Origin: Propioniciclava sp. MC1595
GTDB lineage: Bacteria; Actinomycetota; Actinomycetes; Propionibacteriales; Propionibacteriaceae
DNA length: 64,000 nt
Assembly: GCF_017569205.1 (NCBI RefSeq)
Contig: NZ_CP071870.1
Span: 2,108,001 to 2,172,000, forward strand
Direction: 5' to 3'
The notes below the pieces were generated by a model. That model ran no database searches. It had not been told where the DNA came from and saw only the letters and a program-made list of their open reading frames with translations. Shown piece by piece: positions 1 to 2,636 of the stretch. Within the stretch, counting starts at the first letter, position 1. Each line of letters begins with the position of its first letter. A program made the position numbers and the translations under genes.

Positions 1-633
1 GTACTCCTGCGCCACCACGTAGCCGTCGCGGGCGATCGCCTCGATGATCTGGCTGAGGTTCGGCGACTCCTTGCGGTCCACGAGGAACACGCCGCTGCCG
101 CCGGAGCCCTGCAGGGGCTTGAGCACGGCCTTGCCGCCCAGTTCGTCGATGAAGGACGAGATGAGCGCCTCGTCGCGGGAGATCAGGGTGCGGGGCCGCA
201 CGGTCTTGGGGAAGTGCTGGAAGTACGCCTTGGACAGGGCGTTGGCCAGGGAGCTCGGGTCGTTGACCACCAGCACGCCGGCCTCGGCGAACAGCTGGCC
301 GAAGGCGATGGCCGCGGTGGCCGCCCAGGGCTTCTCGTTGGCGTCCTCGGCCGGGTCGTTGCGGAGCATCACGACGTCGAACTCGCCGATGTCGAGCTGC
401 TTGACGACCTCGGGCTTCTGCACGTCCTCGAGGTAGCGCTCCAGGCTGCGGTACCGCTTGCCCGAGGCCTGGCGCGCCCGCGCGCTCATCGAGCCGTCGG
501 GTTCGTAGGCGAAGTCGCCCAGCCCCATGAGCGAGACCTCGTGGCCGGCCTGGCTGGCGGCCAGGGCGAGCCGGGTGGTGGTGTAGGTGGGCAGTTCGGT
601 GGCGACGTCGTTGACGACGAACCCGATCTTCAT
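1..633 (-). CDS. ATP-grasp ligase, glutathione synthase-like (C-terminus beyond the window edge)
   Basis: The 211 visible codons start at ATG 633 (MKIGFVVNDV) and resemble the N-terminal and central part of prokaryotic glutathione synthase/RimK-type ATP-grasp enzymes. Near the truncated end are the glycine-rich ATP loop (LQGSGGSGVF) and the segment ending VVAQEY. ATP-grasp enzymes join a carboxylate to an amine through an acyl phosphate. The start overlaps the stop of the upstream peptidase gene as ATGA, so the two are translationally coupled. Actinobacteria generally use mycothiol rather than glutathione, so a true gshB role is doubtful. A ligase making a peptide or amino-acid conjugate for the two neighbouring hydrolases is my inference. 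The substrate is unknown. Confidence 0.75.
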   Translation of the reverse strand, partial: MKIGFVVNDVATELPTYTTTRLALAASQAGHEVSLMGLGDFAYEPDGSMSARARQASGKRYRSLERYLEDVQKPEVVKQLDIGEFDVVMLRNDPAEDANEKPWAATAAIAFGQLFAEAGVLVVNDPSSLANALSKAYFQHFPKTVRPRTLISRDEALISSFIDELGGKAVLKPLQGSGGSGVFLVDRKESPNLSQIIEAIARDGYVVAQEY

Positions 634-1787
634 GCGGCGACTCCGATCAATTCGCTGAGGGATTCCAACTGGGACGCCCGGACCATGCGGGGCATCGCGT
701 CGGGGTCGTCGAGGTAGCGGGGGCGCAGGCGGGGCGGGTTGAGGACGCCGCGGTCGCGCAGGTCGGCGATCAGCGGCAGGTCCCGCAGGGAGAACTTGCC
801 CAGGAACAGCAGGTCGAGCTCTCCCCCGTCGCGGACGTGGTGGAGCAGGTCCACCAGGCCGCGCAGGTAGATGGCGTCCTTGGTCAGGCCGCCGGAACGG
901 TAGGCGCGCATGGTCGTGGTGAAGGCGCTGCCCTGCGGGAAGCCGAGCTCCATCAGGGCCTCGAACGACTCCGAGAAGGACGCCCCGGACACCAGCCGGT
1001 GCACGGTCAGGACCCGCGCGGCCAGCTGGCGCAGCCGGAAGGGCGTGAGCCCCCCGCATGCCACCTCGGCGAGGACGGCGAGCCCCTCCTGGGTCTCGTC
1101 GTACCCGGCCAGCCCGGTGCCCAGGACCCGGATGGGCTGCGCGGACCCGTTGACCTGGGTGACCAGGTGGGTGCCGACCTCGTGCTGCAGCAGCGCGTTG
1201 GTGCGCGCCGACTGGACTGCCGAGGTCTCGGCGATCAGCAGCGTGTCCCCCGACACGAGGACGCCGGCGACGTCGTGGCGCACCTCGGCGTTCATCTCGA
1301 TGTCGGGGTCCTGCTCCTTGTAGTGCTCGATCTCGGCGCACGCGAGGGCGTGGAACTCCACCGCGCCCACCTGCTCGCCGCGGCCGGCGCCGCGGGGCAC
1401 GTGCTCGAGCAGGTGCTCGGCGATGTCGCGCAGGGCGGGCGCCACGCCCCCGTACAGCTCCAGCGACAGCGGCAGGAAGTCAGGGGTGTCCCGCGCCCGC
1501 AGCAGGTCGAGCTGCAGGGTCATCTCGCGATGCTTGGCGCGCAGCAGCGCCCCCAGCGTGGGGTCGGACACCGCGTCGAGGTCGATCAGGTCGAGCATGC
1601 CCTGGGCGACGTCGGGGTCGGTCTGCAGGTCGCGGTAGGCGAACCGCGGCATCCGGTCCCCCTCCGCGTAGGCGGTCAGCACCTCGTCGGAGTTGATCGG
1701 CGTCACGTCGAGCAGGAACTGGATCGCACCGCCGACCTGGGCGACCGCGTGGTCGATGACGAGGTCGGTGGTCGCCAGCCCCGTCAT
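630..1787 (-). CDS. DUF1704 / QEGLA-motif zinc carboxypeptidase-like protein
   Basis: A 385-residue protein of the family annotated as 'flavohemoglobin expression-modulating QEGLA motif protein' (DUF1704, PF08014). The family also contains the eukaryotic microtubule tyrosine carboxypeptidase MATCAP. The metallopeptidase motif HEVGTH lies at residues 202-207 and the name-giving QEGLA at 233-237, whose glutamate is the likely third zinc ligand. The start at ATG 1787 overlaps the stop of the upstream amidohydrolase (ATGA), and its own stop overlaps the ATP-grasp start (ATGA). No signal peptide is visible, so it is probably cytoplasmic. Carboxypeptidase activity follows from the family; the bacterial substrate is unknown. 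Confidence 0.8.
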   Translation of the reverse strand: MTGLATTDLVIDHAVAQVGGAIQFLLDVTPINSDEVLTAYAEGDRMPRFAYRDLQTDPDVAQGMLDLIDLDAVSDPTLGALLRAKHREMTLQLDLLRARDTPDFLPLSLELYGGVAPALRDIAEHLLEHVPRGAGRGEQVGAVEFHALACAEIEHYKEQDPDIEMNAEVRHDVAGVLVSGDTLLIAETSAVQSARTNALLQHEVGTHLVTQVNGSAQPIRVLGTGLAGYDETQEGLAVLAEVACGGLTPFRLRQLAARVLTVHRLVSGASFSESFEALMELGFPQGSAFTTTMRAYRSGGLTKDAIYLRGLVDLLHHVRDGGELDLLFLGKFSLRDLPLIADLRDRGVLNPPRLRPRYLDDPDAMPRMVRASQLESLSELIGVAA

Positions 1788-2575
1788 CCGGTGGGCCCTT
1801 CCGCCAGCGCGGCCTCGACCGCCGGCACGGTGCCGGCCAGCGCCGCGATGAGCTCGGCCAGGCGCCCCTCGTCGACCTCGGCGGTCCACTCGTCCATGAA
1901 CGACTTGCGGAACTCCAGGGCCAGGCAGCACCCGGTGCCCGGGTAGCGGGCGTGGATCCACTTGCTCAGGTGGCCGCCCTGGAAGCGGACGTTCTCGCGG
2001 ACGTCCAGCTTGCCCCAGCTTACGGGCGTGCCGGCGAGTGCCTCGGAGAAGGCGTCGACCACGTGCCCGAACCGCTCCCGATCCAGCGAGCCGGTGCCCA
2101 CGTTGACCTCGGGGTTCTCCTCGGGGTCGGACGCCGGCGCCTCGGCCCCGTCGCGGCGGTGGTTGTAGGTGTGGACGTCGTAGAGCACGAACGGACCCTG
2201 CGCGGCGAGGGCGTCCAGGCGCTCGGCAAGGTCGGCGTGGAACGCGTCGTAGAGCTCCAGCGAGCCGTCCACCACGTCGTCGGGCAGCGCGGTGTCGCGC
2301 CAGACCTCGAGGTCCCAGCAGTCCGCGGGCGTCCGGTAGACGGCCTGCTCGCGCGGCCGGTTCAGGTCGACCTCGAAGCGCGAGCGGTGGACGACGAGGT
2401 GGCTGGGGAGCGCGGCGGCGAGGCGCCCGGTGTGCGGGTCCTCCTCACGCAGCCGGTCGGTCTCGGGGAGCACCATCTGCTCGGCCACGTCGGGCCTGAG
2501 GTCGTGTCCGTTGTGGATGGCGGTCGCCACGACGCGAGAGTCCCAGTCGCCGTGGTAGCTGTACGGGCGGCCCAT
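1784..2575 (-). CDS. N-formylglutamate amidohydrolase family protein
   Basis: A 263-residue protein opening MGRPYSYHGDWDSRV. It carries features of the N-formylglutamate amidohydrolase (HutG/FGase) superfamily: an early HNGHDLRP metal-site segment, a VDLNR segment and a YDVHTYNH motif. Classical members hydrolyse N-formyl-glutamate to formate and glutamate in histidine degradation, but no hut genes are nearby. It is the first gene of a three-gene unit with the DUF1704 peptidase and the ATP-grasp ligase. A role in removing or trimming an amino-acid conjugate is therefore as likely as histidine catabolism. The start is set by ATG 2575 with GGGAG just upstream. Confidence 0.8.
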   Translation of the reverse strand: MGRPYSYHGDWDSRVVATAIHNGHDLRPDVAEQMVLPETDRLREEDPHTGRLAAALPSHLVVHRSRFEVDLNRPREQAVYRTPADCWDLEVWRDTALPDDVVDGSLELYDAFHADLAERLDALAAQGPFVLYDVHTYNHRRDGAEAPASDPEENPEVNVGTGSLDRERFGHVVDAFSEALAGTPVSWGKLDVRENVRFQGGHLSKWIHARYPGTGCCLALEFRKSFMDEWTAEVDEGRLAELIAALAGTVPAVEAALAEGPTG

Positions 2576-2580
2576 TCTCC

Positions 2581-2636
2581 CACCGTAGCCAGCCGCACAA
2601 GCCGCTGGCTAGGGGCGGAGCCTGGGTCGCTAGGGT
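2581..2636. promoter_or_regulatory. Divergent promoter region with inverted repeat
   Basis: The gap between the amidohydrolase operon and the DUF6498 gene holds two outward-facing -10-like boxes: TACGGT on the minus strand (2587-2582) and TAGGGT on the plus strand (2631-2636). An inverted repeat AGCCAGC-N10-GCTGGCT (2587-2610) sits between and against them. Such an arrangement could let one regulator control both directions. No regulator gene is adjacent, so the operator role is inferred. Confidence 0.4.

Follow-up and report, generated by a model that had tools for sequence, protein, structure and literature searches.

A conserved cassette of a GshB-like ATP-grasp ligase and two metallohydrolase homologues in Propioniciclava sp. 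MC1595, a candidate make-and-trim module for amide conjugates

The question raised by this locus is what an ATP-grasp ligase and two metallohydrolase homologues, encoded one after another, do together. The locus lies at the start of a 64,000-nucleotide stretch of Propioniciclava sp. MC1595 (contig NZ_CP071870.1, positions 2,108,001 to 2,172,000), which is called the window here. On the minus strand it encodes an N-formylglutamate amidohydrolase-like protein (FGase), then a MATCAP/DUF1704 protein and then a GshB-like ATP-grasp ligase (Table 1); these three genes are called the cassette. The initial annotation described three genes joined by two ATGA overlaps, and both junctions were confirmed on the minus strand: the FGase stop overlaps the MATCAP start in one ATGA, and the MATCAP stop overlaps the ligase start in the other. 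The ligase gene runs off the window after its first 633 bases. The remainder lies at genome C1:2107590-2108000, and the whole gene (L070:9590-10633, minus strand; genome C1:2107590-2108633) encodes 347 amino acids. The host genome is one contig of 3.43 Mb with a single PF08014 gene, and the nearest named relatives by MATCAP protein are Propionibacteriaceae assemblies with 92% identity. The trio was found to be conserved, coupled and in some lineages fused. The reading favoured here, whose chances we consider evenly balanced, is that it forms a module for making and trimming an amide conjugate, with a link to osmotic adaptation.

Table 1. Genes of the cassette in the window, in order of transcription.
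Feature	Coordinates	Strand	Remarks
FGase-like zinc amidohydrolase	1784..2575	-	263 aa, first gene; PF05013 86 bits
MATCAP/DUF1704 (QEGLA) metallocarboxypeptidase homologue	630..1787	-	385 aa, second gene; PF08014 273 bits
GshB-like ATP-grasp ligase (PRK12458 subfamily), 5' part	1..633	-	third and last gene; NF009110 437.4 bits

The grouping is conserved among related genomes. In 68 related loci the FGase was found in 67, the ligase in 67 and the full trio in 66; one locus (L068) is without the FGase and another (L058) without the ligase. The coupling of the genes was examined in loci L002-L066 (n = 65) by counting an in-frame ATGA or GTGA on the upstream stop, that is, as motif matches and not as determined starts, with the proviso that GTGA alone may occur by chance in GC-rich DNA; such matches were present at 53 FGase-MATCAP junctions (30 GTGA, 23 ATGA) and at 54 MATCAP-ligase junctions (52 ATGA, 2 GTGA). 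At the MATCAP-ligase junction ATGA was in frame in all 52 cases and out of frame in none. A fourth conserved partner gene was ruled out, as no gene kept the same position across 65 actinobacterial loci; the most frequent candidates were present in 25 of 65 at variable distance, a count that excludes clusters of open reading frames (ORFs) overlapping the trio in other frames.

The same linkage was evident when 112 PF08014 domains, among which L058 and L156 represent one place, were arranged in a tree. Two clades resulted: A, with 88 domains, and B, with 24, most of them drawn from the Pseudomonadota sample. A partner was called where a hidden Markov model score of at least 150 bits fell within 3 kb of the MATCAP gene. 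In clade A the ligase is near 83 of 88 MATCAPs and the FGase near 78 of 88; in clade B the count is 0 of 24 for each. Where found near MATCAP, the FGase and ligase are encoded on the MATCAP strand. Conversely, the PRK12458 family scored above its cut-off at 10 places in 8 of 299 Pseudomonadota genomes (at least 418.7 bits; next score 240.9). Nine of these ten places adjoin a PF08014 gene, and the tenth starts 48 bases from a contig end. A chance neighbourhood was thus ruled out by the trio in 66 of 68 loci, the clade-A linkage, the overlapping junctions and the reciprocal linkage at 9 of 10 places.

The distribution of PF08014 is patchy. It was found in 6 of 149 genomes of the phylum, three of these six in clade B, in 18 of 147 family genomes, and in 3 of 13 genus genomes among those listed. 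Fifteen of the 18 family loci carry the full trio. The MATCAP of L269 is broken, and L267 and L268 match PF08014 far more weakly and have no partners. The FGase signal of L265 and L266 is divided between two frames. The trio is also present in Alphaproteobacteria, Acidobacteria and Gammaproteobacteria, with the same gene order on rhizobial replicons. Thus, the statement in the initial annotation that the pairing recurs in other bacteria was borne out, and the refuting case named there, in which the three genes are not neighbours in related genomes, did not arise.

The other refuting case named in the initial annotation was that the ligase might prove to be an ordinary glutathione synthase. The protein passed the NF009110 (PRK12458) cut-off of 408 bits and failed both GshB equivalogs, TIGR01380 (181.2 bits, cut-off 299.05) and PRK05246 (198.5 bits, cut-off 272). 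It is homologous to PF02955, of which it is the sole member in the host genome, and like GshB it conserves the core residues K, R, R, N, E and N when aligned with the Escherichia coli enzyme. The host genome has no match to the glutamate-cysteine ligase families PF04107 and PF04262, although an unrelated supplier may exist, and in two other genomes (G397 and G150) a true GshB coexists with the cassette ligase. The 24 GshBs tested were placed in a tree with 36 cassette ligases, with one RimK as the root; they form a single clade (support 0.993) containing no cassette ligase. Seven cassette ligases of the fused type described below are nearer GshB (0.867) than are the other 29, which form a clade with support of only 0.667. 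The signature [FL][ST]PGG is present in the six cassette ligases displayed and TSPT in the five GshBs displayed. An ordinary glutathione synthase was ruled out by the scores below the GshB cut-offs, the lack of a glutamate-cysteine ligase family match in the host, the coexistence with GshB and the separate GshB clade. The cassette ligase is a subfamily distinct from GshB.

For the middle gene, the initial annotation noted HEVGTH and QEGLA motifs, a kinship with the tubulin carboxypeptidase and an uninformative flavohemoglobin name, and each of these statements held. The protein passed the PF08014 cut-off of 27 bits but reached only 294.4 bits against TIGR02421 (QEGLA; cut-off 338.65), so the flavohemoglobin-modulating label is formally inapplicable. 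HEVGTH occupies residues 202-207 and QEGLA residues 233-237. Residues H202, E203, H207 and E234 are kept in at least 97% of 88 aligned sequences. These comprise an HExxxH metal motif and a downstream third-ligand E in an EG motif, which align with human KIAA0895-like, a remote sequence match in the PDB (7z5g, E 9.8e-09, 37.9 bits). Structure prediction used a homologue, L067 (635 aa, 44-row alignment), in place of the window protein. The model is confident in the carboxypeptidase domain, for which human apo MATCAP (7z5g) is the top Foldseek match (E 6.2e-08, TM-score 0.70 on target), while the predicted local distance difference test score (pLDDT) is below 50 over most of the first 230 residues. 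In the excerpted text of PMC10499314, whose title refers to deglutamylation, eukaryotic TMCPs of PF08014, which have the motifs HExxxH and EEG, act as carboxypeptidases on tubulin tails. The bacterial proteins thus share the family, the metal motif with its third ligand and the fold (in the L067 homologue) with MATCAP/TMCP enzymes; in contrast to these, their genes share an operon with those of a ligase and an FGase, and the sequence similarity is remote. The kinship is true homology, and it is silent on the bacterial substrate.

The first protein passed the PF05013 cut-off of 28.9 bits and fell far below that of the HutG equivalog TIGR02017 (28.6 bits, cut-off 278.75). Its AlphaFold2 model (pLDDT 93.8, 47-row alignment) has an N-formylglutamate amidohydrolase, 2q7s, as its top Foldseek match (E 7.3e-12); below the FGase entries, the PDB matches are bacterial metallo-carboxypeptidases (E 3.2e-4) and CCP5 (E 5.4e-3). 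D133, H135 and E221 are kept in at least 97% of 79 sequences, and H21, D133, H135 and E221 are invariant in 47 sequences. The D-x-H and E residues presumably bind the metal, and the conserved metal-motif residues of both FGase and MATCAP would, by family precedent, be catalytic. The protein therefore shares its family and nearest solved fold with the N-formylglutamate amidohydrolase and AstE/AspA zinc hydrolases and differs from HutG in its score and in being encoded with a ligase and a MATCAP. HutG provides a precedent in the FGase family for a catabolic salvage function, in which the cassette would degrade imported acyl-amino acids or peptides and the ligase would trap or recycle the product. 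A sugar ABC transporter after the cassette in Sinorhizobium and an AstE/AspA-type amidohydrolase beside one MATCAP (L140) are consistent with such a function. However, no transporter gene is conserved in the 65 actinobacterial loci and an ATP-consuming ligase would be hard to account for, so that salvage is considered quite improbable.

The two hydrolase domains are fused in one family. In L139 the FGase and MATCAP occupy a single 674-residue frame with the ligase adjacent. In the family of L139 (197 genomes) 78 genomes match, and 63 matches span nearly both whole domains in an open frame of at least 660 residues, as counted from a match list in which some rows report stop codons. Members include Vibrio sp. 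HDW18 and Photobacterium sp. DA100. Of thirty fused loci examined, every one has both domains, 27 have the ligase as a neighbour (one truncated at a contig end) and 28 have a DUF413 gene. Four records (L221, L229, L230 and L231, the first and last apparently the same) hold the fused gene and DUF413 with no adjacent ligase. These data suggest that part of the fused-type family lost the ligase. A separate in-frame fusion, in Tessaracoccus sp. SD287 (L047:7188-9122), is an independent event.

A related arrangement may exist in 14 long MATCAP proteins elsewhere, which are extended at the N-terminus by a domain of about 250 residues. In the three long MATCAPs scanned, Pfam assigned this domain to no family. 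In profile comparisons, the domain matched FGase with 73% probability when the profile comprised nearly all of the stand-alone FGases and with 83% once fused L139 was included; a profile of 32 fused N-termini gave 93%, and the two sets combined gave 97%. Shuffled controls gave at most 0.7% in 20 comparisons with ten column-shuffled controls. The reverse single-profile search was not significant (best E 0.08), and for this reason homology of the domain to FGase is graded as probable only. Because the FGase D-x-H aligns to E-x-W in this domain, the comparison suggests that the domain is non-catalytic and that the FGase is physically associated with MATCAP.

A connection to low osmolarity was found twice. 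First, in one order of Pseudomonadota, four genomes (L142, L144, L146 and L218) have RloA-, RloB- and RloC-type genes directly after the ligase. The upstream genes are complete only in L142, as contig ends truncate the other three loci; L143/L220 holds a remnant. As described in the excerpted text of PMC12239564, rlo governs hypo-osmotic growth in Pseudomonas aeruginosa. The RloA peptidases are required for this growth, RloA resembles RimB and cleaves RimB substrates, loss of RloB or RloC rescues the protease mutants, and RimB counteracts the RimK ligase. Secondly, in the excerpted text of PMC10308900 on Photobacterium damselae in low salt, RS17020 ("GshB") rises 38.4-fold and RS17025 ("QEGLA") 27.5-fold, beside 52.2-fold for RimK; the two tags were equated with the cassette by annotation, by their adjacency and by the Photobacterium gene order in L222, not by sequence. 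The rlo linkage and this one transcriptome point to an osmotic role.

The cassette appears to resemble RimK/RimB and Rlo in kind, as a variant. RimK/RimB, which glutamylates and trims ribosomal protein S6, likewise pairs an ATP-grasp ligase with a protease that undoes its additions, and the Rlo operon likewise has a ligase-plus-hydrolase logic and a link to hypo-osmotic stress (both in the excerpts of PMC12239564). Unlike RimK/RimB, the cassette has a PRK12458/GshB-type ligase and two metalloenzyme families in place of a retropepsin. In contrast to Rlo, neither a secreted aspartic peptidase (RloA) nor a membrane inactive transglutaminase (RloB) was found in or beside the window copy. A ligase and a retropepsin-like protease in one locus, as in those two systems, were not found at the window cassette. 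No RloA-like ORF was found in L070, the locus of the window cassette; the host genome as a whole was not searched for rim or rlo genes.

These comparisons bear on whether the target is a protein. The ligase could extend a protein C-terminus, as RimK does on S6, with MATCAP and FGase trimming it. The tubulin-tail carboxypeptidases within PF08014 (excerpts of PMC10499314), the weaker carboxypeptidase and CCP5 matches of the FGase model and the rlo neighbours in four genomes are in keeping with protein-tail modification. However, the ligase is nearest PRK12458/GshB and not RimK (437.4 against 87.1 bits for rimK_fam), a substrate gene was not found and the eukaryotic resemblance is at fold and family level only; protein-tail modification is thus considered unlikely. 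A broader form of the idea, in which the cassette would be a bacterial writer-eraser code for C-terminal tails, with an ATP-grasp writer and two erasers tuning proteins or peptides upon osmolarity change, is given a similarly small chance. The eraser folds would then resemble both classes of metalloenzymes that trim tubulin tails, MATCAP and more weakly the M14 CCP5-type. If this were true, the eukaryotic MATCAP branch would descend from a bacterial conjugate-trimming ancestor.

The make-and-trim module is favoured because the ligase is tightly linked to two metallohydrolases, is not tied to glutathione and is twice connected with low osmolarity. Judging the chemistry by family membership, the PRK12458-type ligase would activate a carboxylate as an acyl phosphate and couple an amino acid to it, giving a peptide or amino-acid conjugate other than glutathione. 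The MATCAP-like metalloenzyme would take off a C-terminal residue, and the FGase-like enzyme would hydrolyse an N-acyl amino acid at its amide bond, allowing the conjugate to be dismantled. Because FGase and MATCAP are fused in some lineages, the two may act jointly, probably in one complex. The module would tune an acidic, perhaps glutamate-containing, peptide pool or tail as osmolarity drops.

The same genes could instead serve biosynthesis only, the three enzymes building in series a small peptide or amide metabolite (an osmolyte, signal or cofactor) with the hydrolases maturing or editing an intermediate. GshB-like ligases usually act on small substrates, and the encoding of FGase and ligase on the MATCAP strand with overlapping starts in most actinobacterial loci would fit a pathway of this kind. 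However, no precursor-supply fourth gene holds a constant position in the 65 actinobacterial loci, and two hydrolases per ligase would be unusual for synthesis. Biosynthesis alone is therefore regarded as possible but rather doubtful.

Several points weigh against the make-and-trim module. First, 12 of 20 cassette genomes score at least 100 bits for a glutamate-cysteine ligase family, a threshold of our own choice, and several of the eight genomes below it are draft assemblies; three of these eight have partial PF04107 (GCS2) hits of 22.8-25.5 bits (Pfam cut-off 21). Under RimK rooting the cassette ligases are also not monophyletic. The strong glutamate-cysteine ligase members count, together with the annotated names and the PF02955 homology, for a role in thiol or nitric-oxide stress, in which the cassette would be a glutathione-like thiol pathway or a flavohaemoglobin regulator as the database names imply. 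Such a role is considered very improbable, as the host has no PF04107 or PF04262 match, the ligase is under the GshB equivalog cut-offs and the MATCAP under the QEGLA cut-off, and none of the 24 clade-B MATCAPs has the FGase or cassette ligase within 3 kb.

Secondly, the partners of MATCAP are at times missing. Ten of the 88 clade-A loci gave no FGase hit within 3 kb (L136, L147, L083, L155, L154, L068, L140, L143, L146 and L144); among these, L144 and L146 are truncated by contig ends, L083 has split FGase pieces, and L154 and L155, from actinobacteria of another family, have the ligase. The ligase was not found within 3 kb in 5 of 88 (L136, L147, L140, L058 and L156), nor adjacent in the fused loci L229-L231. 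Since clade-A and fused loci miss partners, no gene except MATCAP is obligatory in the sample. Third, the rlo link was seen in one order only, with four full sets and one remnant among its eight ligase loci, and rlo homologues were found in none of the other loci among the 159 searched. The equation of the P. damselae genes with the cassette by annotation is a further such point. Lastly, the opposing directions of ligase and hydrolases are assumed.

Individual loci showed further variation. In L083:2593-7266, from a plasmid of Sinorhizobium medicae, the FGase signal is split in two by a pair of group II intron reverse transcriptase genes, and in Tessaracoccus antarcticus (L043:6333-7980) two tandem FGase-like genes precede MATCAP. 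A long clade-A MATCAP without FGase or ligase (L140:5661-8619) adjoins the AstE/AspA-type amidohydrolase (PF24827), possibly an FGase replacement. One clade-B MATCAP (L128:3046-5614) is divergent beside a RimK-type ligase, the only one of 24 clade-B loci with any ligase-profile hit. Ten proteins near clade-B MATCAPs, including a release factor, a class II tRNA synthetase, an amidohydrolase, an aminotransferase and RsgA, had no common theme. A LysR-type regulator gene is divergent upstream of the cassette in L138, L142 and L221, with related ORFs (cluster c42) in the vicinity of L141, L143 and L147. The profile-scanned genes flanking the window cassette are a signal peptidase, RNase HII and DUF6498. 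The signal peptidase gene is the next on the cassette strand, about 500 bases beyond the ligase, and the divergent DUF6498 gene at 2635 is separated from the cassette start by only about 60 bases (window 2576-2634).

Among the open-licence papers listed, none was found on the trio as such. Sinorhizobium locus tags led to one paper with a single passage on D-galactosamine and to nothing on the cassette. Iyer et al. (2009), on ATP-grasp amidoligases, reportedly covers such neighbourhoods, so an earlier mention is possible.

The cassette matters on several counts. First, it provides a testable context for a large set of bacterial DUF1704/QEGLA proteins with a misleading database name. Secondly, it separates a second GshB-like ligase subfamily, which is annotated as glutathione synthetase yet adjoins a MATCAP-type peptidase. 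Lastly, it shows a bacterial relative of human MATCAP in the company of a ligase and another metallohydrolase, and there are hints of osmotic stress; this setting makes the question of the substrate approachable.

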